Position numbers and translations under genes: made by a program. The notes under the pieces were generated by a model. The model made no database searches. It was not told the origin of the DNA and saw only the letters and a list, made by a program, of their open reading frames with translations. Positions 1 through 20,965 of a stretch of 21,480 nt of DNA are shown here, piece by piece. The number at the start of each line of letters is the position of its first letter. Positions within the stretch are counted from its first letter, which is position 1. The stretch is from a virus: the IMG/VR virus record IMGVR_UViG_3300035670_001395, positions 1 through 21,480 of that record; one strand, given 5' to 3'.

Positions 1-3000
1 ACCGTGTATCAGGATCGATGCCGGCTATTGTGGCGTCATGCATGACATCAGCAAGTGCCCTGGCCAACTCTGGATTCTTGTCATTAAACGCAACCCATGG
101 CGTAGCAATATCAGCCGCCTTGGTAATACGCGTATCTCGATAGGCAAGCATGTCATTGACCGCACGGTAAAACTTCTTGATCTGCGGTAATGCATCTGAT
201 GCTATCTCACCAAGCTGGCGCAGGTTCAATGTGCTCAGTAGGATGTCTGCTTTGTCAGTAGCAAGATCCTTGATGTAATCCCTTGTGTTGTTCTTGATCT
301 GATTGAAGTCCGGTCCAGACTTCACCAGATTGTTCATGGACGTTTCTGGATCTACATCAAGATTGGCTGCATTGAGGATGATCTCTTCTGTCTCTTGCAG
401 CGTATCTTTGTCTTCTTTGGTCGCTATGTTCGCAGAGACTTTGTCATAAGGCTGCTTGTATAGCGTCTGGTCCTTACGCACCCGAGAACCAATCTCACCT
501 GACATGATCCGTTCAAAGACTTCCGCCTCTGTCTCGGTAATGCCAAGCCCCATGGCGTAGTCAGCAAGCTTCTTGAAGAACTCCTTGGTCTTCTGAAAGA
601 TCCTAGCCACAGCGCCCGCTGGCTGAAACTCACCACGGGTGTAATACTCAAACGCCCTGGCCACACCCTCTTCAAGCTTCGTATCCTTAGACTCTTTGCG
701 ATAGATCTGTTCGACCGTCATGCCATGGTCGTCTGGCCACTTACGCTTAACCCAGTCTCTCTCAGAAGCTTCAGAAAGAATCCGCCACTCATCCGCGGTA
801 AATAGATTCATCGACCGCAGCGCATGGATCACCTCGTGATGCAAGGTTCTCTTAATGCGCTCTGGGTTCTGTGCTGTTGATGACTTTGTACGCTTAGCCA
901 GATCAATGGCTACACGTAACAGCCTGCCAGTTACCTTAAGGGTTTCGTTGCCAGTGGCGTCGATATCTCTTGTAACGTAGGTAGCCATCTCGCCAACGGT
1001 ATAACCTTTCTTGGTTTTCTTCGGGCGGATGAACTCAAGGCTAAGATCCTTCAGGCCAATCCTATCCAGCTCATCCCTGAACTGGGTAAACATATCCCGC
1101 TCTGCTTGTATCGCATTCTTTGGCAATACAGGAGCGGCGGTTACCGGGGGCGCAGTTACTTTCGGTACGGTAGGCGGAGAAGTTACGGCTTGGGTGACTG
1201 GTGGTACTGTAACTGGAGGTATTGTAGTTTGCGGTGCAGGTGCTGGCTGAGCAAAAAGGTCGGGAGGTTCCTGGCCAATTGTCTTGACAATATCAATTGC
1301 AGGTAATTTGGTTGTTTCACCAAACATATCAGCAGCTGGTTTATCAGCTTCACTGTTTAATTCATCGCCTACACGGCTAAGCTCGTTTGCCATGTACCTT
1401 GTCTTGCGTACATTGTTCGCAAAGAAATCTAGGATTACTTGCTGTACTGGAGTCCTCGTGAAATCTCCGAGCGCAGCTTGTTTGGCAATCGTTATGCCTG
1501 ATCGACTTGCATTAATTGCATCCTTTGCGGCGTTTGCTACGTCTTGTCGGATGTCATATTCGCCCTTACCTTTTAATACAATTAGTGAGGGAGCGGCCTG
1601 CACCATTGCATTAATAATATTTAACTGCTCTTCAGCTTCGGCCAGAGCTATAAGATCAATTAATTCATCATCCTCATAAGTTGCGGCAAATACCGCATTG
1701 CGTAATCTCTTTCTTGCGTTTGCGGTTGGCTGATTATTTGGCGCAAGCTCTTGCCGCTCATTGGCGGGCATAGCTTGTATGAATTGCGATAATGCCTCAT
1801 ACGTTGGCGAACCATCTTCGTTAAACGTAAGCTGTCCGATATCAATCCGCGTTGCATCTTGTCGCGCACGTTCAGCGTCTGACATTCCCAGTGATGCTGT
1901 TTGGTTGCTTATGTCCCCTACATTTGGCGGCACAAGATCTGGATCTACCACCCGCACAAGAATTGGATCAGCATATGCTGTGCGCGGTATTCCCAACTGG
2001 TCAGTAAGACTGCTTATATCTGCACGATAAGCAAGCACGCCGGTCATGCCACGAGCTAAATTTTCGTAGGCTCGCTTCAGCCCTGCTATACGTCCGTTAT
2101 TAATTGGTATGTAAGGAGACTTGCCAAAATCAGGATTGATATCCCCGTCTGCTGTATGAGAAGGAACGACCATACCTGACGAAATAACCGCATACCTAAA
2201 TGGCATTTCTGTTCCATCCGGCGCAATTGCCACGCCTTTTGGCCCAACCGATGCAAGCTGGCTTGCCCAATCTTTTGATGGAGCAATAACCAAAGGCGCC
2301 CCATCTGTAAACGTATTTGATTGACCAAGCCTTCTTGGATCTGGATTGCTTGCAATTTGCTGCATTTGTTGAACAGATGCAGGAGACGACCGATCTCTTG
2401 GTTGCAAAGACGGAGGGATCTTTGTTGCAGATGGCTTGGGAGCTGGCGCCTCTGTAATCTGTACCTCTGGCTTTGGTAAAGCCTGTATTCCCAGGGGAGC
2501 TGTAACTTGAGGCGTAGTCACTGTCGGCGCTGGAGTTACAGAAGGTTCTTGAGAAATTACTTGAGGTACTGATGGCGGCGCAGTGACAGCCTGTACAGGT
2601 GGAACTGTAGTAGGTGGAGCAGGTTGTGTTACCGGTGGCGCTGCCTGCTGTGCTGGCGGTGCTGCTTGAACTGATGTAACAGGCGGTGCTACTGGCGGTG
2701 CGGCAGGTTGTGTAACCGCTGGCAATGAAGCTTGCGGTGCAGCAGTAACAGGCTGAACCGGCGGAATAGCTTGCGGCATCTCCATGGCAGGAGTAACCGG
2801 CGGTATCGTTACCTGCGGCTGCGCTTGTGGCACTACCTGCGCTACAGGTTGCTGCACTGCACCAACTTGCTGCGGTGCAACAGGCTCTAATGGTGGAGTG
2901 ACAGGCGGAATAACTCCGCCACGTGGCGGAGTTTCCGGTAGTGCTTGTACTGGTCTGGTGCGGTCTGCAATAGCTCCGACTGCGGCAGGACCCATTGAAC

Positions 3001-3982
3001 CGATTGCTCCGGCCGCCCAAGAATTTATATACTTATTGATATTTTCAGGAGAGAAAATATCGTAGTTAGCATCAATTGTTTTGATCGCAAGGCCGTTAAT
3101 AAGATCTTGCGCTACCTCAGTCAGGCCTTCTTGTGCGCTTACAAAAGCTGCTTTAGCGGCGACCTTGGAGGCTTCTTTTGCAAAGCCTCCGCGCTCTAGT
3201 GTTTTTTCAACAAGCTTCAGCCGTCCATAGCCACCTAATTGGCCAAGTATTTTTGATGGTATGTAGCTCTCAAGTAATGAGTTTGCACCACCAGATACAG
3301 CAGCGAGGCCAGGGTCCATTTGCCCAGTGGCCTCATAAATTTCTCTAAATGAATCTGGAGCTGTTTGTGCGTAAGAAGTTCCTATGGTTGCGGCGCCTGC
3401 TCGGCCGGCTAGCAATCGACTAGCCGCGGCAGCAGCCTCACGCTCTGCTAGTGCAGCAGGCAACCCTCTCTGCAATCCAGCTTTCATAGCTTCCTGACCT
3501 GCAAGCTTGGCGGCGTTCCGTGATGCAAACGCTGCTGCGCCACCAGGAAGTAAAGCTGTTGCTATTTGAGGAAGCGCCTCTCCAGCCTTCTCTATACCAA
3601 ATCCGATATATTCGCCTGGGCCCTGGAGCTTTGTGACATCCGTGTATTGCGTAGGAAAGTCTCGCTCTATCTCTGCATATCGCTGCTTACCCTTCTGTAA
3701 AAACTCTAAAGCCTTATCCTCTGCCCCACCAAAGCCTAGCTTAGCAAGTGCGGCAAGCCCAAGGGCCGGCAAGTCATACATTGCACCAGCGCCCATCTGC
3801 TGGACTGTCCGCCCGGCGGCGGACTTGAACAGCTCGCCGCCTGTATACGGAGCTCTGGCGCTAGATTCTTTACCGACGCTAGATGACTCGACAAGCCTTC
3901 TTACGACCTTTTCGTATTCATCTTCTCGAAGACCATCAGGCAGGCTGACCGGACCTACGCCAGGTATCTGGAATATCGGCAT
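1..3982 (-). CDS. Large polyvalent phage protein: N-terminal Ala/Gly-rich domain, DdrB-like ParB domain, zincin metallopeptidase (3' end outside window)
   Basis: The frame is open from the ATG at 3982 (AGGGG eight bases upstream) to the window edge, giving 1327 codons with no stop. Residues 1-340 are Ala/Gly-rich and helical with hydrophobic stretches, as in virion proteins injected with DNA. Residues about 345-535 are a Pro/Val/Gln linker with repeated PPVT. Residues about 527-720 resemble the DdrB-type ParB domain: QPRDR (527-531), PSHTADG (about 607), NNGR (628-631), ILVRVVD (from 674), then ISN and an Asp/Arg-rich segment. A second PPVT linker spans about 911-955. Residues about 957-1170 form a zincin-like domain with HEVIHALR (H1049, E1050, H1053) and a candidate third ligand in LEEGVARAF (E1104/E1105). 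The visible C-terminus is helical. Such fusions are known as polyvalent proteins, thought to be ejected to protect phage DNA or modify host targets. Substrate and role here are inference; the frame and the motifs are seen directly. Confidence 0.85.
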   Translation of the reverse strand, partial: MPIFQIPGVGPVSLPDGLREDEYEKVVRRLVESSSVGKESSARAPYTGGELFKSAAGRTVQQMGAGAMYDLPALGLAALAKLGFGGAEDKALEFLQKGKQRYAEIERDFPTQYTDVTKLQGPGEYIGFGIEKAGEALPQIATALLPGGAAAFASRNAAKLAGQEAMKAGLQRGLPAALAEREAAAAASRLLAGRAGAATIGTSYAQTAPDSFREIYEATGQMDPGLAAVSGGANSLLESYIPSKILGQLGGYGRLKLVEKTLERGGFAKEASKVAAKAAFVSAQEGLTEVAQDLINGLAIKTIDANYDIFSPENINKYINSWAAGAIGSMGPAAVGAIADRTRPVQALPETPPRGGVIPPVTPPLEPVAPQQVGAVQQPVAQVVPQAQPQVTIPPVTPAMEMPQAIPPVQPVTAAPQASLPAVTQPAAPPVAPPVTSVQAAPPAQQAAPPVTQPAPPTTVPPVQAVTAPPSVPQVISQEPSVTPAPTVTTPQVTAPLGIQALPKPEVQITEAPAPKPSATKIPPSLQPRDRSSPASVQQMQQIASNPDPRRLGQSNTFTDGAPLVIAPSKDWASQLASVGPKGVAIAPDGTEMPFRYAVISSGMVVPSHTADGDINPDFGKSPYIPINNGRIAGLKRAYENLARGMTGVLAYRADISSLTDQLGIPRTAYADPILVRVVDPDLVPPNVGDISNQTASLGMSDAERARQDATRIDIGQLTFNEDGSPTYEALSQFIQAMPANERQELAPNNQPTANARKRLRNAVFAATYEDDELIDLIALAEAEEQLNIINAMVQAAPSLIVLKGKGEYDIRQDVANAAKDAINASRSGITIAKQAALGDFTRTPVQQVILDFFANNVRKTRYMANELSRVGDELNSEADKPAADMFGETTKLPAIDIVKTIGQEPPDLFAQPAPAPQTTIPPVTVPPVTQAVTSPPTVPKVTAPPVTAAPVLPKNAIQAERDMFTQFRDELDRIGLKDLSLEFIRPKKTKKGYTVGEMATYVTRDIDATGNETLKVTGRLLRVAIDLAKRTKSSTAQNPERIKRTLHHEVIHALRSMNLFTADEWRILSEASERDWVKRKWPDDHGMTVEQIYRKESKDTKLEEGVARAFEYYTRGEFQPAGAVARIFQKTKEFFKKLADYAMGLGITETEAEVFERIMSGEIGSRVRKDQTLYKQPYDKVSANIATKEDKDTLQETEEIILNAANLDVDPETSMNNLVKSGPDFNQIKNNTRDYIKDLATDKADILLSTLNLRQLGEIASDALPQIKKFYRAVNDMLAYRDTRITKAADIATPWVAFNDKNPELARALADVMHDATIAGIDPDTR
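2912..2933. repeat. Perfect 22-bp palindrome with CACGTG centre
   Basis: Two 11-base arms (AACTCCGCCAC and its exact reverse complement) meet with no loop. It lies in the first Pro-rich linker of the polyvalent protein and encodes part of ETPPRGGV, so codon constraint may explain it. It does not look like a terminator, because no T-run follows on either strand. Confidence 0.6.
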
Positions 3983-3993
3983 TTATCTGCCCC

Positions 3994-5616
3994 TTATTTC
4001 TTACCGCTGGCTATCGCTTGAGCTTGTTCTTTCGTTATGACAAGAGGGTTCGCAGTTCTAAATACATCAAGCACTTCGTTTGTGTATTTATCGAGAATCT
4101 GCTTCCTGCGTTCAGCATAATCCTCTTGGGCTTTCCTTGATTTTTCATCCGCGCCAGAACGCCATGCCTTTGGAAGCTTAGTAGAGGACCAGAACATCTC
4201 CTCAGTACGTTTGTCAAATTCATTATCAAGCCTCTGCAATTCTGGCTGTGCTCGCTCGATAGCTTTCTCCCGAATGTCCGAAAGAATTTTTGGAGTCATG
4301 CCGCCTTTTGTCTCTGAGGATCCAGCAACTTTGTCAGGCTTTGTTAGACCCTTAACCGCAGCCATGATGCCAAGAGTATCTCTCTTAAACTGATTGCGAG
4401 CATCAACAGCTTTCTCTTTGTAGATAGCCTGCTCTTCTGCGTACTTGCGGGCGCTCTCAAAGTCCTTGCGCTTCAACGCATCCTTGTACTGCTCACCAGC
4501 CATACGAGCCTTGAGCTCATTTAGCTTAGCTTCTTTGTTTGCAGCTTCAATTCCTTCCTTCGTGCCTTGGTATCCCTCAAGCATTCCTGCAATGCCTGCG
4601 CCAAAGTCACGGCCCGTGTATCCAAGTCCAGCAATACCAGCCTTCATGAAGGCTCGACGACGAGCTTCTTCAGGACTTACCTGTTGGCCAGCAGCTTTGG
4701 CTAGCTCTAACATGATTGAACTAACCTTGTCAGGGAATCGCTTCTCATACCTAGCAGCTTCCTCATCTTCAATCTTCCGCCTCTCTTCCGGGCTCATGGG
4801 AGGATTGATCTCTGGAGTGAAGTCCTTTGCAATCGTTGCTAAACCACCAAGGGTTGGAGCAGCGGGAGCAGTAGGAGTGGTAGGCTGTCTGTTTGCAAGA
4901 ATAGAGGCAATCAAATTATTAAGCTGGGCGTTCTGACCCTGGCTTTTATCTTCTTGCGTAGCTTTATCGGTTGGCAAAGCTTGAGGTTGCACTACTTCAC
5001 CTCTTTGCTGCCTTAAACGATCGTAGAACGGCGTCATACTGGATCTATCACCGCCGTAAACAGCTTCTGGTAAATAAGGGACATTTAGCCCCAAAGCCCT
5101 TAATGGCCTCGTTATCCCAGTTTCGGCCGCCCCAAGAACCGCTCTTCCTGGTAAAGAAAGCACATCCATAGCAGATGCGCCTAGCGACTGGAGAGTATCC
5201 ATCATGGCTTGACGATCTTTTTTCTTACGCTCTTCATCAGGGTCCCCACCCCCAGAGAACGCAACAGGACCGCCCTGCGCCATGCCAGGCACAAGCGACC
5301 CGAGACCTTGTTGCTGCATTTCAGGTTGAGCCATAGGTTGTGCCATGGGCTGCATAGGCTGACCCATGGGTTGCGGTGGCGCAAGCAACTGCTGTTGTAG
5401 CTGATCAATGATCGGGCCAGAAGGCTTTTGCTGCTTAGCTTCAAAGTCCTTGCGGATACGCAAACGCCGATCCATCTCGGCGGCTGCAACAAGGGCTAGC
5501 TTAGGATCGTTGCGATAGTTAGGAAGCTCTTCATCAGGAAAGTTCTTGAAGATATCCATCGCCTCAAACAAGTTAATGTCTGGGGCTAGGCCCGGTTGAG
5601 CCATGGTTGTAGTCAT
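3994..5616 (-). CDS. Putative internal (ejection) virion protein, 540 aa
   Basis: No enzymatic motif is recognised. The N-terminal 60 residues look helical. A Gln/Pro/Met stretch follows at about 80-105, with repeated QPM units. A GGPVAFSGGG segment near 115-125 resembles Gly-rich motifs I have seen in large phage virion proteins. Residues about 280-540 are strongly charged and helical, with probable coiled coil (many Glu, Lys, Arg and Ala). The composition, with no signal peptide and little hydrophobic sequence, fits a protein packed in the capsid and ejected with DNA. Position supports this: it sits between a gp14-like protein and the giant polyvalent protein. The start ATG overlaps the upstream stop (ATGA) and follows GGAGG at six bases. 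The ejection role is inferred from context. Confidence 0.8.
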   Translation of the reverse strand: MTTTMAQPGLAPDINLFEAMDIFKNFPDEELPNYRNDPKLALVAAAEMDRRLRIRKDFEAKQQKPSGPIIDQLQQQLLAPPQPMGQPMQPMAQPMAQPEMQQQGLGSLVPGMAQGGPVAFSGGGDPDEERKKKDRQAMMDTLQSLGASAMDVLSLPGRAVLGAAETGITRPLRALGLNVPYLPEAVYGGDRSSMTPFYDRLRQQRGEVVQPQALPTDKATQEDKSQGQNAQLNNLIASILANRQPTTPTAPAAPTLGGLATIAKDFTPEINPPMSPEERRKIEDEEAARYEKRFPDKVSSIMLELAKAAGQQVSPEEARRRAFMKAGIAGLGYTGRDFGAGIAGMLEGYQGTKEGIEAANKEAKLNELKARMAGEQYKDALKRKDFESARKYAEEQAIYKEKAVDARNQFKRDTLGIMAAVKGLTKPDKVAGSSETKGGMTPKILSDIREKAIERAQPELQRLDNEFDKRTEEMFWSSTKLPKAWRSGADEKSRKAQEDYAERRKQILDKYTNEVLDVFRTANPLVITKEQAQAIASGKK

Positions 5617-6362
5617 CGCATTCCTCCGTACAGCAATCCAGCAAGACCAAGCGTTTGAACAAATGGATTAGATGGCGCGTTGTAATAAGACTGAGTAGGC
5701 GACTGTGGGTATCCAAAGATAATGGACTTATAGGCTTCAGCCTGAGTCTGTGGATACAAACGCTGCTTCTCAAACTCCTGATACATCAGATCAAGATCGC
5801 GCTGGCGTCTTGCTTCATCGGCTAAACCTAGCTGCTGCAAGGTCTGAGCTTTCTGCTGTTGATTAGCAAGATCTTGCTGATATAGCTGGCCTGCCTTATC
5901 AAACGCCGCAGCAGACCCCTGCATCTGAATATTGCTCAATTGCGTACCAAGCCCTTTGGCAAGCTCCGCCTCCATGATCCCTTGGCGTGACCCACCAAAC
6001 GCACCGCGTTGCCCAGCCTGTGCTCGCAGATTCTGCAAACCTGATGTGTAATCCCTTACCGCAGCCTGTTTGGCTACATCCGTTACCGACTGTTGATAAG
6101 GATTCATGTAGGCCTGCATGACGCCCACATTCTGGCCGCCCACATTCATGGACCCTAAGATGCCAGGCGTTGCAGCAGTTTGCTGTGCAGCTTCTACACC
6201 TTGCTGGTACAGGCCAGAAGTCTCAGCCGTCCTTGGTGCTGTGTACGGCGTATAAGGTGTATACGCAATCTGCTGACCCATGCGATATAGGTCAGATATG
6301 TACGGAAGCTGATACTCTGGTGCGCTTGCGGTTACAGTTGTTGAAGGTCCGCCCAGGCTCAT
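5613..6362 (-). CDS. Putative internal virion protein, T7 gp14-like in style, 249 aa
   Basis: The N-terminus is Tyr/Pro/Thr-rich (YTPYTPYTAPRT at about 34-45). The centre carries MNPYQQSVTDVAKQ (about 86-99), then a segment centred on GQRGAFGGSRQGI (about 117-129) and a long Gln/Ala-rich helix to about 210. The MNPY...V...A pattern followed by RGAFGGSR and Gln-rich coiled coil is one I know from many short-tailed phages, in genes usually called internal virion or hypothetical proteins. No catalytic motif or membrane helix is evident apart from a short hydrophobic end (LGLAGLLYGG). The start overlaps the upstream stop (ATGA) after AGAGGTGG. The likely role is an ejected channel or capsid core component; this is inference from composition and neighbours. 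Confidence 0.8.
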   Translation of the reverse strand: MSLGGPSTTVTASAPEYQLPYISDLYRMGQQIAYTPYTPYTAPRTAETSGLYQQGVEAAQQTAATPGILGSMNVGGQNVGVMQAYMNPYQQSVTDVAKQAAVRDYTSGLQNLRAQAGQRGAFGGSRQGIMEAELAKGLGTQLSNIQMQGSAAAFDKAGQLYQQDLANQQQKAQTLQQLGLADEARRQRDLDLMYQEFEKQRLYPQTQAEAYKSIIFGYPQSPTQSYYNAPSNPFVQTLGLAGLLYGGMR

Positions 6363-6727
6363 TTGACCACCTCTTCAGTTAAAACTACGCCCCGTTCACG
6401 CATGTTAAATACACGCCGCCAACCGGGTCGTCCTTGGATCGTAATTGCATCACATCCTGCCTTCTTTGCATACCAACGTACAGCAGGCGCAAAGGCAAGT
6501 TTGAGTTCCTCTAAGCTACCGCCAGCAAGCCAGCAGTTGTAAATCTTTTTCTGCGGGTAGACCCGAATCTCTGCAACAACCGCCGCCTCTAATCCGGGAA
6601 GGAATATAGCCTCCCCTCTTATCACAGCAGCTTTTACATCTTCCAACGTAAACAAATTACCTGCGTGATCAAGAGCCGCCTGTAGCCATGGACCACATCG
6701 ATCCCACTCTTGATCAAATACACTCAT
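6359..6727 (-). CDS. Small GNAT-like phage protein, 122 aa
   Basis: This compact alpha/beta protein has an N-terminal helix rich in Trp and Asp, central strands (AEIRVYPQKKIYNCWLAGG, about 51-70), and a C-terminal segment GCDAITIQGRPGWRRV (about 91-106). The layout, with a helix at SLEELKLAFAPAVRWYAKKAG before a strand and the QGRPGWRR loop, resembles the core of GNAT N-acetyltransferases, where a Q/R-x-x-G-x-G/A loop binds acetyl-CoA. The glycine pattern here is degenerate, so enzymatic activity is doubtful. Similar short proteins sit among the internal virion genes of many phages, including T7 gp13, whose fold I recall as GNAT-like. It starts by ATGA overlap with the upstream gene. Family assignment is tentative. 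Confidence 0.75.
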   Translation of the reverse strand: MSVFDQEWDRCGPWLQAALDHAGNLFTLEDVKAAVIRGEAIFLPGLEAAVVAEIRVYPQKKIYNCWLAGGSLEELKLAFAPAVRWYAKKAGCDAITIQGRPGWRRVFNMRERGVVLTEEVVK

Positions 6728-7700: not shown

Positions 7701-8342
7701 CTATGGTGGTGTTGGCCGGGGGGCCGGCAAAGGTGCTATGAAGTTTACCGCCATAACACTTGACGGTATACCGGGATGTGGGGACGTTGGAGCCACTGCA
7801 TCTAACTGTACATTCGTATCAGATGTTGCTATTTCCAACTCTAGGTACTCGCCAACGTCCAGGTCAATATTAAAGTTCCAGCTTATTTCTACGTATTCAT
7901 TGTTTGCTGATAACGTGTAAGCATGTGTTGAATAATTGATGGTTATGTCGTTGCGTTTAATCCATAAAAAGACGTTTTTTGGACTTGAGTTTGTGCTTAA
8001 TAGCTGTCCCGAGTATTGAAAATTATAAATACCACCTATCGTTACCTCTATTCGAGAGGTGCTTCCTGTTTGTAGCGCAACAGCATTATTCAAATAGGTG
8101 GCATTAAAAACCACCGGATAGGCTGTATTTATTGCCGCAAACGTCTGATCCGCCGTATTGAAAAACAATCCGTTTGGACAGTCTATGTATCGACCTCCGT
8201 TAGGACCTAAAACATTTTGTGTAATGTTTTGAAGGCGATTGAAATACAACCGCAAGATATTGGAATACTGATCTTGAAAGAAAGCCGAGTACTCCATGGG
8301 CGCCAGAGCTAATGCTGGCACTGCCGGGCTATCTAGTTTCAT
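7701..8342 (-). CDS. Putative beta-sandwich virion protein (C1q/TNF-like style), 213 aa
   Basis: After a short helix (FFQDQYSNILRLYFNRLQNI, about 21-40) the protein is almost all predicted beta strand. It has the alternating pattern of jelly-roll phage decoration or fibre domains: VVFNATYLNNAVAL, TSRIEVTIGGIYNFQYSGQL, VFLWIKRNDITINYS, YVEISWNFNIDL and GEYLELEIATSD. I have seen this layout in small virion proteins encoded beside gp10-like genes; a trimeric C1q/TNF-like fold is my inference. The end is Pro-rich (PLPAPRPTPP). It starts by ATGA overlap with the gp10-like gene, suggesting coupled translation and possibly a shared assembly. It may be a tail or receptor-contact protein; no direct evidence decides. 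Confidence 0.8.
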   Translation of the reverse strand: MKLDSPAVPALALAPMEYSAFFQDQYSNILRLYFNRLQNITQNVLGPNGGRYIDCPNGLFFNTADQTFAAINTAYPVVFNATYLNNAVALQTGSTSRIEVTIGGIYNFQYSGQLLSTNSSPKNVFLWIKRNDITINYSTHAYTLSANNEYVEISWNFNIDLDVGEYLELEIATSDTNVQLDAVAPTSPHPGIPSSVMAVNFIAPLPAPRPTPP

Positions 8343-10474
8343 ATACCCTGCCCCGTTGCCCGACCATCACCCTTGATGTCTATCCTTGGCGCACCTAGCT
8401 GCCATGTGCAACCAAGCTGATTGGATTCAACCTTAAAGATCATCTGACGACCACGCACCCTGACATAAACCTGGCCGGTAAACTGCTCAATTGTTGTCGT
8501 CGATGTACGCACAACTGAGGCTGAAGATGATCCGCTATTAGACTGAGGATTGTTATACCCAGATCCTGAGTTCATCATGGGTATCAGTGTCATGGTTACA
8601 GCAGGGGACGTAGCTTCTGATCCCTCAAAGGTGATGTCAGGAAGAACCCTGTACACGTACCCTAGGTTATGGCCGTCTTGGATATCAAACTCAGCAGACT
8701 CAATGTAAGCATTAATCGCAGCCGCAGTCCCGGTCTCGTTGTCATCAACGCCGCGCTCATGGTCTACGATGTTGTAGTTATACGTTGCAGCCTGTGGGTA
8801 TTGCCTTAGACCAGAATCACTCCAAGCAGTCCTGGCCATGCTGCCGTAATACCAAATATTCTCTGCGTAGTTGTACACCACATAGCGATTAACGGTTGTG
8901 CTATTTGCAGAGCAATAGAACCACCAGACTTCGTTGAAGCCTTCGTTCGTCCCTGCAAAAACCTGGAAGTTCTGATACCTGTTTATGTCATTAAAGACAT
9001 GCCGGCGCAGGTCACAGTTCAGCGTTTGCACACGTCCGTTGTACAGGTAGAACTTGTCAACACCCATCCAGTATGTAACACCCGATGCAACCGCCGTGGC
9101 GCTAGGTCCTATGATGGACGTGTTGTCCGCCAAGATCTGAGAGCCCCACACAAGCGGCGCCCCCAAGTACTGGACCGAGAACAAAGCAGAGTCTGTCCAA
9201 ACAAGAATCTCTTGCCGCTGCTGCTGTACGGTAATGATCTGGGACCCATGAGAGAGCCTGATTGATCCGGCTGTATTGGTTGCCGAAGGTCTCCAATCCA
9301 CCAAGGATTCCTGATCGCACCAGCGAATGAGCATGGGATCAACAACCGAGCTATCAATATCATTGGTCCCAAATACCATCAGATACCGTAGCGCATCTGA
9401 GATCATCAACGAATACTGATACTTAGGCACGTCCTCAAGAACCATGGACTGTGTGCCTGATTGCGTACCAGACGTTGTAATCAGTGATCCTGTTGGCGTA
9501 GCCGAAAGGTTGGCTGTTAGCCCAGACACGTTTCTCAGGTAGTACGTCGTACCAGCCGTAAGTCCTGTAGGTAATGCGCCTGTGGTTGAAAACGATACTG
9601 CCGTACCTTCCGCCAGTACAACACCAAACGTCACAACACATGGGCCAGCGATGGTTAGCGTAACCGTACCGCCAAGACTACTTAACGCAACGCCCCTGGA
9701 ACTCAAACCACCCGTGGCATCCCAGTAGTAAATACCAGCCGCCCGTGGCCCAAATACCAGATCCTCGCCCCAGTTACCTGCATTCCAAATCCTAAGCGGA
9801 TCAGTGACTTGTGGCGTAACACCCCATGATCCAGAACCCCATGCGCCAGCTCCCCACCCAATGAGAGGAACTTGGGCAATACCTGGACCCGTATTGACTT
9901 GGAATGCGCCAAGCGAAGAACCGCCACCGTTACCAACATCTGAAGCATTAGATGTAACCGTAGCCCCGGTCGATGGATCCGTCGCCGTAAAGGTAAACGT
10001 ATTAGCCGTGGGTACAGAGGTAATTTGATACTGCTGATTCAGTACCGGCGCCGTGATGTTTCCGCCCAGAGACACAGCCCCTGAGAACGTCACGAAGTCA
10101 CCAAGGATTGCGCCATGGTTTGCGCAAGTAACCGTAATCGTCGAGGAATAAGGGGCTGTCGTTACGGCTGCAAAAGTAACAGAAGCAGTCAGGCGTATGG
10201 GCGTGATGTCGTAATACGCGCCGCCCTGCTCGATGTAATACTTGAGGTTGGTTCCAACACCAAGCAGGTTAGAGTTACTTAGCGTTACCCAGTTCCAAAG
10301 CGAGCGACAGATACCAAGGAATGTAGCTTGTGATATGCGAACCCATCCGCCAATCTTCTCAGGCGTACCTTGGCGGAAACGAACCTTCTCAGAGACATAC
10401 CATCCGTTCTCATTTGTATAACGGGTATTCTCTTTATTAACCCCAGGCTTATAAAGCGTCTTGACTAATGGCAC
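8339..10474 (-). CDS. P22 gp10-like packaged-DNA stabilisation / tail hub protein, 711 aa
   Basis: The N-terminus (KTLYKPGVNKENTRYTNENG, then VRFRQGTPEKIGGW by residue 45) is a hallmark I associate with the Phage_stabilise family (P22 gp10). In P22 this protein plugs the portal after packaging and joins the tail to the neck. The middle part carries Ig-like beta repeats (about 105-330, Thr/Gly/Val-rich). It is followed by propeller-like blades with Trp and Tyr clusters (SYWMGVDKFYLYNG-like, about 465-480; NEVWWFYCS, about 510; ENIWYYGSMARTAW, about 535). The C-terminus VYVRVRGRQMIFKVESN (about 672-688) and RIDIKGDGR (about 699-707) is also typical. Translation starts at GTG; no ATG lies close to the conserved N-terminus. 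Length is greater than P22 gp10 (about 470 aa), apparently through the Ig-like insert. Confidence 0.82.
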   Translation of the reverse strand: MPLVKTLYKPGVNKENTRYTNENGWYVSEKVRFRQGTPEKIGGWVRISQATFLGICRSLWNWVTLSNSNLLGVGTNLKYYIEQGGAYYDITPIRLTASVTFAAVTTAPYSSTITVTCANHGAILGDFVTFSGAVSLGGNITAPVLNQQYQITSVPTANTFTFTATDPSTGATVTSNASDVGNGGGSSLGAFQVNTGPGIAQVPLIGWGAGAWGSGSWGVTPQVTDPLRIWNAGNWGEDLVFGPRAAGIYYWDATGGLSSRGVALSSLGGTVTLTIAGPCVVTFGVVLAEGTAVSFSTTGALPTGLTAGTTYYLRNVSGLTANLSATPTGSLITTSGTQSGTQSMVLEDVPKYQYSLMISDALRYLMVFGTNDIDSSVVDPMLIRWCDQESLVDWRPSATNTAGSIRLSHGSQIITVQQQRQEILVWTDSALFSVQYLGAPLVWGSQILADNTSIIGPSATAVASGVTYWMGVDKFYLYNGRVQTLNCDLRRHVFNDINRYQNFQVFAGTNEGFNEVWWFYCSANSTTVNRYVVYNYAENIWYYGSMARTAWSDSGLRQYPQAATYNYNIVDHERGVDDNETGTAAAINAYIESAEFDIQDGHNLGYVYRVLPDITFEGSEATSPAVTMTLIPMMNSGSGYNNPQSNSGSSSASVVRTSTTTIEQFTGQVYVRVRGRQMIFKVESNQLGCTWQLGAPRIDIKGDGRATGQGI

Positions 10475-10477
10475 GTT

Positions 10478-10984
10478 CTACCCCGCGAGATACAAGGCAC
10501 GTTCAGCTTTGCGACGGCGTACTAATCCCGGTAATACCTTGCCACCGCCCATAGTCCACATCATAAACGCTTCCGCTGCGCCTTCATAGTCGGCGCGGTT
10601 GTTCTTCATTCTTATCGTAGAACTCTGATAACGCCCAGGTCCAGCGTTGAACGCAAAACTAACCACAGCGTCGAAGCTTGACTGACGGCCAGCAAGATTA
10701 GGAGACATTCTAAGAACACTGCGTTCAAAACGGACGAGATCATCCTCAAAAAGGCGATCAATCTCCTCTTGCGTCCAAGTACGATTATCCTTGGCTGCGA
10801 GCGGGTAGTCCTTGCGAAGGATGCCGGTATAACCATCTTTCCTCAACGCCGGTAATTTGATCTGATCTTGGTACAGAACATGGCCGTAACCAACGGTCCA
10901 AATGTGGGCTGGGCATAAGTAAGGCTTGAGACTCTTGCCCTCAAACCTGTGCATCAACTCAATGCCAGCCTGACCCGTTTTCAC
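10478..10984 (-). CDS. Endolysin, GH24 lysozyme (muramidase), 168 aa
   Basis: This enzyme should cleave the glycan backbone of peptidoglycan at the end of infection. The N-terminus fits the T4/P22-type GH24 active site: E15 in HRFEGKSLKPY, residue 24, and T30 in WTVGYGH, with the canonical E-x8-[D]-x5-T spacing. The middle position is Cys24, not Asp; from memory some phage GH24 endolysins share this change. Downstream come FDAVVSFAFNAGPG (about 104-117) and PGLVRRRKAERALYL (about 152-166), both typical. There is no N-terminal signal-arrest helix, so export should depend on the holin. Translation starts at GTG, overlapping the holin stop (GTGA). The length is normal for the family. I saw no Rz/Rz1 spanin pair nearby. 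Confidence 0.92.
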   Translation of the reverse strand: MKTGQAGIELMHRFEGKSLKPYLCPAHIWTVGYGHVLYQDQIKLPALRKDGYTGILRKDYPLAAKDNRTWTQEEIDRLFEDDLVRFERSVLRMSPNLAGRQSSFDAVVSFAFNAGPGRYQSSTIRMKNNRADYEGAAEAFMMWTMGGGKVLPGLVRRRKAERALYLAG

Positions 10985-11486: not shown

Positions 11487-11903
11487 CTAACCCTTAGCTG
11501 TTACGATGTCTTGGCCTTTTTTAACCGTAACCTTGGAGCCTTCAACATCAACTTGCATAGGCTGCTCGGCTCGGTCTAGTTTGTCAAGACGGTGGATAAG
11601 GTCTTTGATGACTTCAAACTCAGGCTTCTCTTGCTTGGCTGCGGTTCCAGCAATGCCGTTTAGCATCTGAATAAGTGCAGTAAGTGAAGCGCCAAGCAAG
11701 CCCATTACAGCGGCGATTTTTTCGCCATCAAGGAAAAGCGATGCACCAACACCCACGAGTACGATTAGGAAGATATACAGTAAGCCATCTTCGCCAATGG
11801 CTTTACCTGCTACTTCTTTGGCCGAGTCTTGTGCTTTAAGCTCATCAAGCCTAATTCTGGCCTGGGCTTTAAGGACCGCCAGTTCGTGGGCCTTTTCTTC
11901 CAC
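11487..11903 (-). CDS. Two-helix membrane protein of the lysis cassette, possible accessory holin or antiholin, 138 aa
   Basis: A charged helical N-terminus (about 1-37, KAHELAVLKAQARIRLDELK) leads to two hydrophobic helices, about 41-58 (LLYIFLIVLVGVGASLFL) and 63-85 (IAAVMGLLGASLTALIQMLN). The C-terminus is soluble and charged, with EVIKDLIHRLDKLDRAEQ (about 98-115) then a short beta-like tail. It lies directly upstream of the GTA-type holin, whose soluble segment begins with the same AHEL pattern. A second holin, antiholin or lysis regulator is plausible; no family name is certain. The only possible start is GTG: the frame is closed by TGA three codons earlier and has no ATG near the N-terminus. 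The ribosome site is weak, so coupling to the 48-aa gene is likely. Confidence 0.72.
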   Translation of the reverse strand: MEEKAHELAVLKAQARIRLDELKAQDSAKEVAGKAIGEDGLLYIFLIVLVGVGASLFLDGEKIAAVMGLLGASLTALIQMLNGIAGTAAKQEKPEFEVIKDLIHRLDKLDRAEQPMQVDVEGSKVTVKKGQDIVTAKG

Positions 11904-11905
11904 CT

Positions 11906-12052
11906 TTAAGACTCACTGCTATCAGGAACCTGTGGCGTCCCCTGGGCTTTGATCTTTTCAATCAGATTGGCAACCTGTGCGTAGGGCAACTGCCCTAGCG
12001 TGGTTAGGATCTGATTTACTTCCTCAAGGGAAAGCTCTAACTTGATATTCAT
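11906..12052 (-). CDS. Conserved small phage protein, 48 aa, function unknown
   Basis: The peptide begins MNIKLELSLEEVNQILTTLG and continues with a second amphipathic helix (PYAQVANLIEKIKAQ) and an acidic Ser-rich tail. I recognise the MNIKLEL...EEVN.IL..LGQ.P pattern from many phages, where it sits near lysis or fibre genes without known function. It looks like a two-helix protein that could dimerise. The ATG at 12052 is preferred over an upstream TTG at 12100, because it begins the recognisable sequence and its ATGA overlaps the stop of the upstream frame. A weak GGAG lies ten bases upstream. Confidence 0.72.
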   Translation of the reverse strand: MNIKLELSLEEVNQILTTLGQLPYAQVANLIEKIKAQGTPQVPDSSES

Positions 12053-12116
12053 ACGGAATCGGCTCCAATCGAATCTGCCGCAGGCACTATCCACTGACAA
12101 GTTGCTTTTGTTGCAT
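12049..12116 (-). pseudogene. Possible frameshifted micro-ORF (about 22 codons)
   Basis: A good ribosome site (AGAGG, six bases) precedes an ATG at 12116, but that frame stops after nine codons. The frame two bases on stays open as ATKATCQWIVPAADSIGADS and ends in a TGA that overlaps the ATG of the 48-aa gene as ATGA, the junction used throughout this operon. One extra G after the ATG would join the two into a 22-23 residue peptide beginning MATKATCQW. Either a one-base deletion or a sequencing error has broken it, or the arrangement is chance. Any function is unknown. Confidence 0.4.
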
Positions 12117-12122
12117 GGCTAA

Positions 12123-12126
12123 CCTC
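12123..12126 (-). promoter_or_regulatory. Shine-Dalgarno site before the broken micro-ORF
   Basis: GAGG lies six bases before the ATG at 12116. It has no intact gene directly behind it, which is the main reason to suspect a frameshift there. Confidence 0.4.
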
Positions 12127-12129
12127 TTA

Positions 12130-12492
12130 TCAAACTGGCCCTTGGAACCAACCACCGGCAAAAGTTCTTACTGGATCGGCTGGCAAAACAATATTAGAAC
12201 GCATGTTCTCAGGCAATAAACCTGTAAGTATCCGTATATTGACATGCCATCCAGGTAGTGGCTCCATCTCAGGTACGTCATCAACCACAACACCCGTTGG
12301 CTTGTAAATGATGCCAATGACATCAAAATCGATTCCAGGTGCTGCAAGCCATGAGTTGATGATGACAGGCTCTGGAGGCTCTTGATCAGGCTCTACGGTC
12401 TGAGGTGCGTACTCGTAATGCACCCACCCTTCAGAAGCAGCAGCGGCCCACCATGCAGCCTCATCAGCAAATTGTAATCGGTAATCGTTCAT
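12130..12492 (-). CDS. Small phage protein beside fibre genes, 120 aa, function unknown
   Basis: The protein starts MNDYRLQFADEAAWWAAAAS. It has an acidic Pro-rich loop (EPDQEPPEPVI), a central strand pair DFDVIGIIYKPTG, and a C-terminal part with GWHVNIRILTG and a Trp-rich end. The pattern of an aromatic N-terminal helix, a D.IG.IY strand and a HVN.R segment is familiar from small proteins next to phage fibre genes. I cannot name a function; a tail-associated or fibre-assembly role is possible. A start four codons earlier overlaps the fibre stop (ATGA), but GAGG six bases before the ATG at 12492 and the usual MNDYRLQ beginning favour the internal start. Confidence 0.75.
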   Translation of the reverse strand: MNDYRLQFADEAAWWAAAASEGWVHYEYAPQTVEPDQEPPEPVIINSWLAAPGIDFDVIGIIYKPTGVVVDDVPEMEPLPGWHVNIRILTGLLPENMRSNIVLPADPVRTFAGGWFQGPV

Positions 12493-20060: not shown

Positions 20061-20484
20061 ACGATGCCGTGACTGAATTAAGTAACGCCTGTCCAATCAA
20101 ATGATTGGGGGTCATGCCTGTGTCGTATGCTCTTGCACCACCCACCGGGTTGAAGCCCCATTCAATTACTCGGCTTCCTTCAAGCGGAACACCCGTATAT
20201 AAAGGGTCTGTTCCTACGGTGTAGTTAGTCTGCATCCCATTTAAGCCTGACTGGTAATACGAGTTGGAATCGGGACGTGGATTCCTAACGGCCTGCGGAT
20301 CGGAAATGGGAAACATGCCAAGTTGCAATTGCGGCTGATCAGGATTCCAGCATTCCGCACATGCAAGTATATTCACATTTTTGGTTTTAATCACTAGCTG
20401 CTTGAGTTGCTTTAGTTTATATCTAAACCCACAAACATCGCACTGCGCGATAGCAAACTTGCCACTAGCAAATCTATTCGGCAT
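20059..20484 (-). CDS. Putative zinc-ribbon phage protein, 141 aa
   Basis: Two CxxC knuckles, C15/C18 (QCDVCGFRYKLKQLK) and C42/C45 (ACAECWNPDQPQLQLG), are 23 residues apart, a spacing suited to one zinc ion. SDPQAVRNPRPDS (about 61-73) follows. The rest is Tyr/Gly/Asn-rich and ends near GQALLNSVTAS. I recognise the CDVCGF.YKL...CPECW-like arrangement followed by DPQA.RNPRPD from phage neck regions, where it is annotated only as hypothetical. It may be a neck-associated or DNA-contacting protein. Its first 11 bases overlap the end of the homing endonuclease gene and no clear ribosome site precedes it, so it probably depends on translation of that gene. Confidence 0.8.
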   Translation of the reverse strand: MPNRFASGKFAIAQCDVCGFRYKLKQLKQLVIKTKNVNILACAECWNPDQPQLQLGMFPISDPQAVRNPRPDSNSYYQSGLNGMQTNYTVGTDPLYTGVPLEGSRVIEWGFNPVGGARAYDTGMTPNHLIGQALLNSVTAS

Positions 20485-20965
20485 GGCTAGTACCAGGAGG
20501 GTAGGCAGGTTCTTTCATTGAAGCGCGTATATCCTGCAACATTTTTCGTATATCCAATCTTGCCTGCATGACGTGATCAGGGATTGGGTTTGATGAATTA
20601 CCGTACTTTACTCCATCGTTTCTTCTTAAAGGGTATTTGAGAGCAACATCAACCTGCTCAGCCTTTACAACCAAGTATGGTCTGATCTGCTTTAGGAAAT
20701 CCATTGCCCCTTCGTTTTTTATACCCCATCTGTGCTGTACAGACCAACGCCTACCGTTAGGCGTTCTGTCTCTGCTAGTGACTATCTTGCCGCCAAACCA
20801 TTCCAGGAATAATTCTAGGCACGGCAAACTTGTTTGGCTAACTTGGGTATGCAAAACAGTCCTATAACCATGACGACATTTATCATTTTTAGATAGCTCG
20901 ACAATTACACAGCCTTCGCCATCAAAAAACCCTGCCGCCCATGCTAATTCTGTTGGAGTTGGCAT
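20474..20965 (-). CDS. Free-standing LAGLIDADG-type homing endonuclease, 163 aa
   Basis: The N-terminal helix carries LAWAAGFFDGEGCVIVEL (about 7-24), a LAGLIDADG motif in the common AGFFDGEG form with the acidic catalytic residue. Strand-turn segments follow (HTQVSQTS, FGGKIVTSRDRTPNGRRWSV), then the usual late helix FLKQIRPYLVVKAEQVDVAL (about 90-109). One motif copy implies a homodimer that cuts a near-palindromic site of about 20 bp. The gene joins the upstream stop directly (TAAATG) and overlaps the next gene by 11 bases. It is not inside a visible intron or intein, and neither neighbour looks broken. It is therefore a mobile gene fitted into the neck operon. Activity is inferred. Confidence 0.85.
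   Translation of the reverse strand: MPTPTELAWAAGFFDGEGCVIVELSKNDKCRHGYRTVLHTQVSQTSLPCLELFLEWFGGKIVTSRDRTPNGRRWSVQHRWGIKNEGAMDFLKQIRPYLVVKAEQVDVALKYPLRRNDGVKYGNSSNPIPDHVMQARLDIRKMLQDIRASMKEPAYPPGTSHAE

Follow-up and report, generated by a model that had tools for sequence, protein, structure and literature searches.

A giant phage protein with a DdrB-like ParB module and a probable zincin region between conserved ends

The IMG/VR virus record IMGVR_UViG_3300035670_001395, which we analysed over its whole length of 21,480 bases (the window; L-numbers below denote related contigs), begins within a giant gene on the minus strand that is cut off by the contig end. What kind of protein does this gene encode, and what would it do for the phage? 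We consider it probable, at about 70%, that the product is a phage-type polyvalent protein as defined by Iyer et al. 2017, made late, packaged into the head and ejected, with interchangeable payloads. Two hallmarks of that class were seen: several unrelated domains share one polypeptide, and they are encoded alongside late and virion genes, the giant gene being the last of the late block and on the same strand as ejection-like and structural genes. We propose packaging into the head and ejection because of what is established about polyvalent proteins (PMC5512222) and about the Dar proteins of P1 (PMC9024508), and we infer packaging, injection, processing and enzyme activities by analogy with these systems.

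Architecture of the giant protein

The gene and the parts of its product are as follows.

2..3982, minus: gene of the giant, probably polyvalent protein (1327 codons, ATG start, 3' end cut by the contig end)
2948..3982, minus: Ala/Gly-rich N-terminal domain, residues 1-345, constant in the family (alignment A6)
2453..2947, minus: linker rich in Pro/Gln/Val/Thr (28% P, 14% Q), residues 346-510
1238..2452, minus: DdrB-like ParB module, residues 511-915 (PF18763 at 507-679 plus a helical region), an exchangeable slot
1133..1237, minus: second Pro-rich linker, residues 916-950
425..1132, minus: zincin-like metallopeptidase region, residues 951-1186 (alignment A3, predicted fold order, weak Foldseek viral matches)
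824..838, minus: HEVIH, residues 1049-1053
668..673, minus: Glu pair E1104/E1105, candidate third zinc ligand (invariant in A3)
8..292, minus: first half of LPD39 (PF18858), start of the conserved C-terminal scaffold

Positions 2 to 3982 are a real gene, because the ATG is preceded by the ribosome-binding site GGGG, a stop-free run of 1327 codons has a chance probability of ~7e-29, and ratios of nonsynonymous to synonymous substitution (dN/dS) are low: ~0.05 in the N-terminal domain (compared with L003), 0.07 in LPD39 and ~0.14-0.17 in the zincin region (compared with close relatives). These ratios indicate purifying selection on all three segments. The initial annotation had described one open frame joining an Ala/Gly-rich domain, a DdrB-type ParB domain and a zincin. 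The frame was found as described, on the minus strand and open at the contig end, and its motifs lie where they had been placed (QPRDR at residue 527, PSHT at 607, NNGR at 628, LVRVVD at 675, HEVIH at 1049 and EE at 1104-1105). The ParB and zincin-like parts of its domain list hold up; it had missed LPD39, a DarB-like scaffold of 850 residues and the exchange of cassettes among close relatives.

LPD39 was recognized by its Pfam profile at residues 1231-1325 (E 4e-22, 79.3 bits against a cut-off of 27), where the match is interrupted by the contig end; the complete domain is present in L003 and L007. Full-length relatives have 1930-2122 amino acids (aa) in L003, L004, L005, L007 and L012, and more distant ones have 2993 aa (L015) and 2506 aa (L134). 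The complete window protein would thus have roughly 2,000 residues, of which the window holds most. The missing 3' end, whose recovery had been proposed with the initial annotation, was in this way supplied by the full-length proteins of related contigs rather than by the window's own sequence. In the relatives, the scaffold of ~850 residues from LPD39 onward matches phrog_10089, "DarB-like antirestriction" (E 2e-136), as well as giant proteins of the podoviruses Skulduggery, PEp14, PBC5, POI1126, Atu_ph08 and Vibrio douglas 12A4. No provirus with the C-terminal scaffold was found in species genomes.

The DdrB-like ParB module

The Pfam ddrB-ParB family (PF18763) matches residues 507-679 (E 6e-18, 65.5 bits against a cut-off of 27.6). 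The module extends beyond this Pfam domain. Over 421 columns, residues ~511-915 share 25% identity with P1 DdrB (E 6e-11), whose residues 60-429 are matched by a module profile with E 2e-95. The module also aligns with the C-terminal parts of late proteins of ~960 residues from many phages. R631 and Y652 occupy invariant columns (alignment A5), and Y652 lies in a predicted helix. Both fit the active-site Arg and the Tyr in an extra helix that Iyer et al. describe as conserved in the DdrB-ParB family (PMC5512222). The same paper offers nicking, degradation of host DNA or sensing of nucleoside triphosphates as roles for this family, and by analogy the window's module probably acts during entry, by binding or cutting DNA or nucleotides.

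Between the strands, the window ParB has extra residues that include PSHT (positions ~2130-2310, residues ~560-618); this stretch is missing from most DdrB relatives and common to L039 and the window. A close copy of the ParB cassette was not found elsewhere in IMG/VR, the nearest being ~32% identical.

The zincin-like region

Residues 951-1186 are probably a zincin, as judged from conservation and predicted structure. Across 14 homologues with identities down to ~24%, no variation occurs at H1048, H1049, E1050, H1053, E1104 or E1105 (alignment A3), and shuffling of the window protein gives an expectation of 0.0016 for an HExxH motif. In an AlphaFold model of the region (predicted local distance difference test score, pLDDT, 67), a helix and three strands are followed by the HEVIH helix and, later, by the EE helix. 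HEVIH lies in model helix 90-107 and EE in helix 149-165, both active-site helices having a pLDDT of ~85-94; the helix and three-strand part has a pLDDT of ~55-75 and no PDB match. In a Foldseek search of viral models, the best matches of the zincin model were two large proteins of phages, at E 2e-5 and 1.5e-4, one of which is annotated as RelA/SpoT. Weaker matches were a Zn-dependent protease from a phage (E 0.019) and a protein of the SprT-like type (E 0.11).

Profile and structure searches had been suggested with the initial annotation as checks of both domains. They yielded the ddrB-ParB family match and no match of the window protein to a curated zincin profile above the cut-off; the modelled order of the HEVIH and EE helices agrees with the predicted zincin, at the modest model confidence given above. 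A SprT-like profile matches below threshold in 7 of the 14 homologues (best E 0.015), and a PDB sequence search found nothing. The missing profile match says little, because the published zincin of P1 DdrB likewise has no Pfam zincin match.

Probable exchange of middle modules among relatives

We compared the 12 family members in which the middle of the protein is covered. The C-terminal scaffold is constant among them, and so is the N-terminal domain wherever it is covered (33-97% identity, alignment A6). Between these ends the content varies: the ParB module occurs in the window protein only, a module that we call SLW in eight members, and the zincin and an ADP-ribosyltransferase (ART) in ten each, the ART lying before the zincin in L003 and after it in most, in up to three stretches. 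The window has no ART upstream of LPD39. In the distant members L131 and L134, up to three ART-matching stretches lie C-terminal to the zincin. The SLW module (165 residues, L003 positions 11639-12133, fold unassigned) fills the ParB slot in relatives and was not found outside the giant-protein family.

Close relatives differ along the protein. Compared with L007, window DNA is 96% identical over residues 928-1181 and 98.5% over residues 1197-1327, but at the N terminus the two share only 67% amino-acid identity; there the window is instead 95% identical in DNA to L002. Breakpoints fall at domain edges or within the proline-rich linkers. The GC content at third codon positions is 0.36 in the ParB cassette and 0.35 in ART versus 0.52-0.58 in the zincin, LPD39 and C-terminal parts, a contrast limited by the similarly low value of the N-terminal domain (0.41). 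The simple reading of this mosaic is recombination among related phages, which probably took place in nature rather than in assembly.

Several related contigs (L002/L121, L128, L127, L006, L130 and L126) end inside the giant gene, among them L002/L121 at residue 405 and L128 at residue 418, both within the linker. Such ends could stem from the coexistence of different cassette variants or from repeats within linkers in the assembly graph.

Comparison with known systems

The polyvalent class, the ParB family, LPD39 and the pairing of ParB with a zincin are already known. The initial annotation was right to call this a giant polyvalent-type protein with a DdrB-type ParB and a zincin-like region. 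The two Pfam families that match, ddrB-ParB and LPD39, were both defined on polyvalent proteins (PMC5512222). It went too far in treating the domain set as special: the ParB-zincin pair is not new, because the prototype, P1 DdrB, is already built in this way. In this head protein of 995 aa, the ParB is homologous to the window's over ~400 residues, both proteins have an HExxH zincin-like region C-terminal to ParB, and both are late (DdrB being head-associated). In contrast to the window protein, DdrB is half the size and has no detected N-terminal Ala/Gly domain, LPD39 or C-terminal scaffold, and its zincin motif, HELGH, lies in a region without a profile match to the window zincin.

The DarB-like podovirus giants (phrog_10089) share LPD39 and the ~850-residue scaffold and are likewise encoded by the last gene of the late operon, but their N-terminal domain does not match the window's. 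The two that we scanned, from Skulduggery and douglas 12A4, carry other payloads: SLT, helicase, methylase or inorganic pyrophosphatase (InPase). The methylase and helicase domains of DarB were not found in the window protein or in P0002 and P0003; only the C-terminal scaffold is common. The polyvalent proteins of Iyer et al. 2017, with metallopeptidase (MPTase), ART and LPD domains, similarly combine unrelated domains in one large phage protein near late genes; the order N-terminal domain, ParB, zincin, LPD39 and C-terminal scaffold did not occur in the accessible part of that paper (PMC5512222).

Two further systems share single features. The virion RNA polymerase of N4 (gp50) is also a giant that is packaged in the head and contains an HExxH zincin-like region, but the window protein lacks the RNA polymerase and the likeness of the zincins is one of motif only (11 hhalign columns). 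Alcaligenes phage Piluca gp47 and ~78 similar loci also have this ParB module, in a late protein encoded immediately before a pilot protein; gp47, at ~960 aa, differs in having ParB at the C terminus and an N terminus unlike the window's. Epsilon15 gp16 was rejected as a carrier of ParB, because what it shares with Piluca gp47 is the first 270 residues of the latter, which lie outside the module.

What we add is the architecture and the strain-level exchange of cassettes between phages whose flanks are 95-98% identical in DNA. Polyvalent proteins have been known through their domain architectures, and this group offers close relatives that differ mainly in payload. With the constant ends delimited, their sufficiency for head packaging and delivery becomes directly testable, as with the first 30 residues of P1 DarB.

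Proposed function and alternatives

As a polyvalent protein, the giant would be a late product that is loaded into the head of a podovirus-like phage and enters the host together with the genome. A constant scaffold, probably for packaging and translocation, would be formed by the N-terminal domain and the LPD39/C-terminal region, with the middle payload strung on flexible proline-rich linkers. The ParB module would act on DNA or nucleotides when the phage enters, and the zincin would most likely cleave its own polypeptide to free the payloads, or else a host protein; self-processing is the leading idea of Iyer et al. for polyvalent zincins, and they also allow an effector role (PMC5512222). 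Recombination between related phages would swap the cassettes, leaving sister phages with different modules, such as ParB or ADP-ribosyltransferase, in otherwise similar proteins. Tentatively, and with less than even confidence, we see in the ejected giant of this one lineage a cassette platform, with constant packaging and ejection ends and linker-bounded slots for ParB, SLW, ART (in two positions) and the zincin. If so, payloads would be reshuffled on the time scale of strains, as in polymorphic toxins, and co-occurring phages would deliver different entry effectors via the same machine.

Several observations weigh against this picture. No virion proteomics was found for this phage or for a homologue with its C-terminal scaffold, and the "DarB-like" giant gp69 of JC1, which has been seen in virions, was rejected as homology evidence since it has no detectable homology. 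The structure models are mediocre, and Foldseek gave no significant match in the PDB for either of the two. The zincin is absent from L144 and L145; it is therefore not essential to the family, and we discarded the idea that it is the constant core. No second contig was found with ParB in the window's backbone.

This last point touches on whether the ParB arrangement is itself genuine. A metagenome assembly chimera at the repetitive proline-rich linkers is possible, because some related contigs end in a linker; the true sister protein would then have the SLW or ART arrangement. Breaks of several related contigs within the giant gene, some of them in the linker, and the restriction of ParB in this backbone to the window contig speak for such an artefact. 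It becomes less likely because the frame stays open across both junctions and the linkers on both sides resemble those typical of the family, and even a chimera would require a second gene in which ParB lies between such linkers. Overall we regard it as highly improbable.

The middle modules could all be host-directed effectors: without any self-processing, the zincin would cut a host or defence protein and ParB would nick the DNA of the host or of a rival. An effector role for MPTases is allowed by Iyer et al. (PMC5512222), and a zincin that varies within the family, being lost in two members, is what one expects of a payload rather than of a housekeeping processor. According to the same paper, however, the ParB module's nearest relative in function, P1 DdrB, is processed before packaging (PMC5512222), and in the P1 work it contributes to the loading of DarB into the head (PMC9024508), which makes a purely effector function rather unlikely. 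The P1 result also bears on the idea that the giant is chiefly a structural, ejection-channel or packaging protein in which ParB and the zincin serve assembly and look enzymatic partly as a vestige: DdrB was detected in the P1 head by mass spectrometry and "aids DarB addition to capsid" (PMC9024508), the ParB module recurs in the ~960-aa late proteins just before the pilot protein, as in Piluca, and the giant gene holds the final position of an ejection-type operon. Yet residues of active-site type are invariant down to ~24% identity, and ART cassettes, which have no structural role, occur in the same protein. We therefore judge a mainly structural function unlikely and prefer the polyvalent interpretation.

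Late-operon context

The neighbouring genes are as follows.

3994..5616, minus: 540-aa protein directly upstream of the giant gene
5613..6362, minus: probable DNA ejection protein, 249 aa (phrog_4287, E 1.3e-4)
6359..6727, minus: conserved late-operon protein, 122 aa (phrog_22172, E 1e-7)
8339..10474, minus: virion structural protein, 711 aa, of the podovirus "stabilization/needle head" type (phrog_3287, E 3e-53)
10478-10984, minus: phage lysozyme gene (Pfam E 1e-33), with the structural genes and then the giant gene downstream
20474-20965, minus: open reading frame of a LAGLIDADG-type homing endonuclease (Pfam E 9e-6), among head/tail genes

The match at 5613-6362 to the PHROG "DNA ejection protein" agrees with the earlier placement of the giant gene at the end of an ejection-protein operon. 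In the named phages, a gene of 434-566 aa likewise precedes the giant gene, and its product has no detectable sequence similarity to the 540-aa protein. The 711-aa structural protein, which was also matched in the named phages by tblastn, marks the late operon. The 122-aa protein is 88-92% identical in L003 and L007.

In relatives (L003, L005, L007 and L008), the gene immediately after the giant gene is convergent and encodes a glycosyltransferase; the ends of the two genes overlap. Its coordinates in L007 are given here.

16197-17171 of L007, minus: glycosyltransferase gene (Pfam GlcNAc, E 4e-57)

Beyond the convergent gene, the relatives encode an ERF recombinase and a nuclease.

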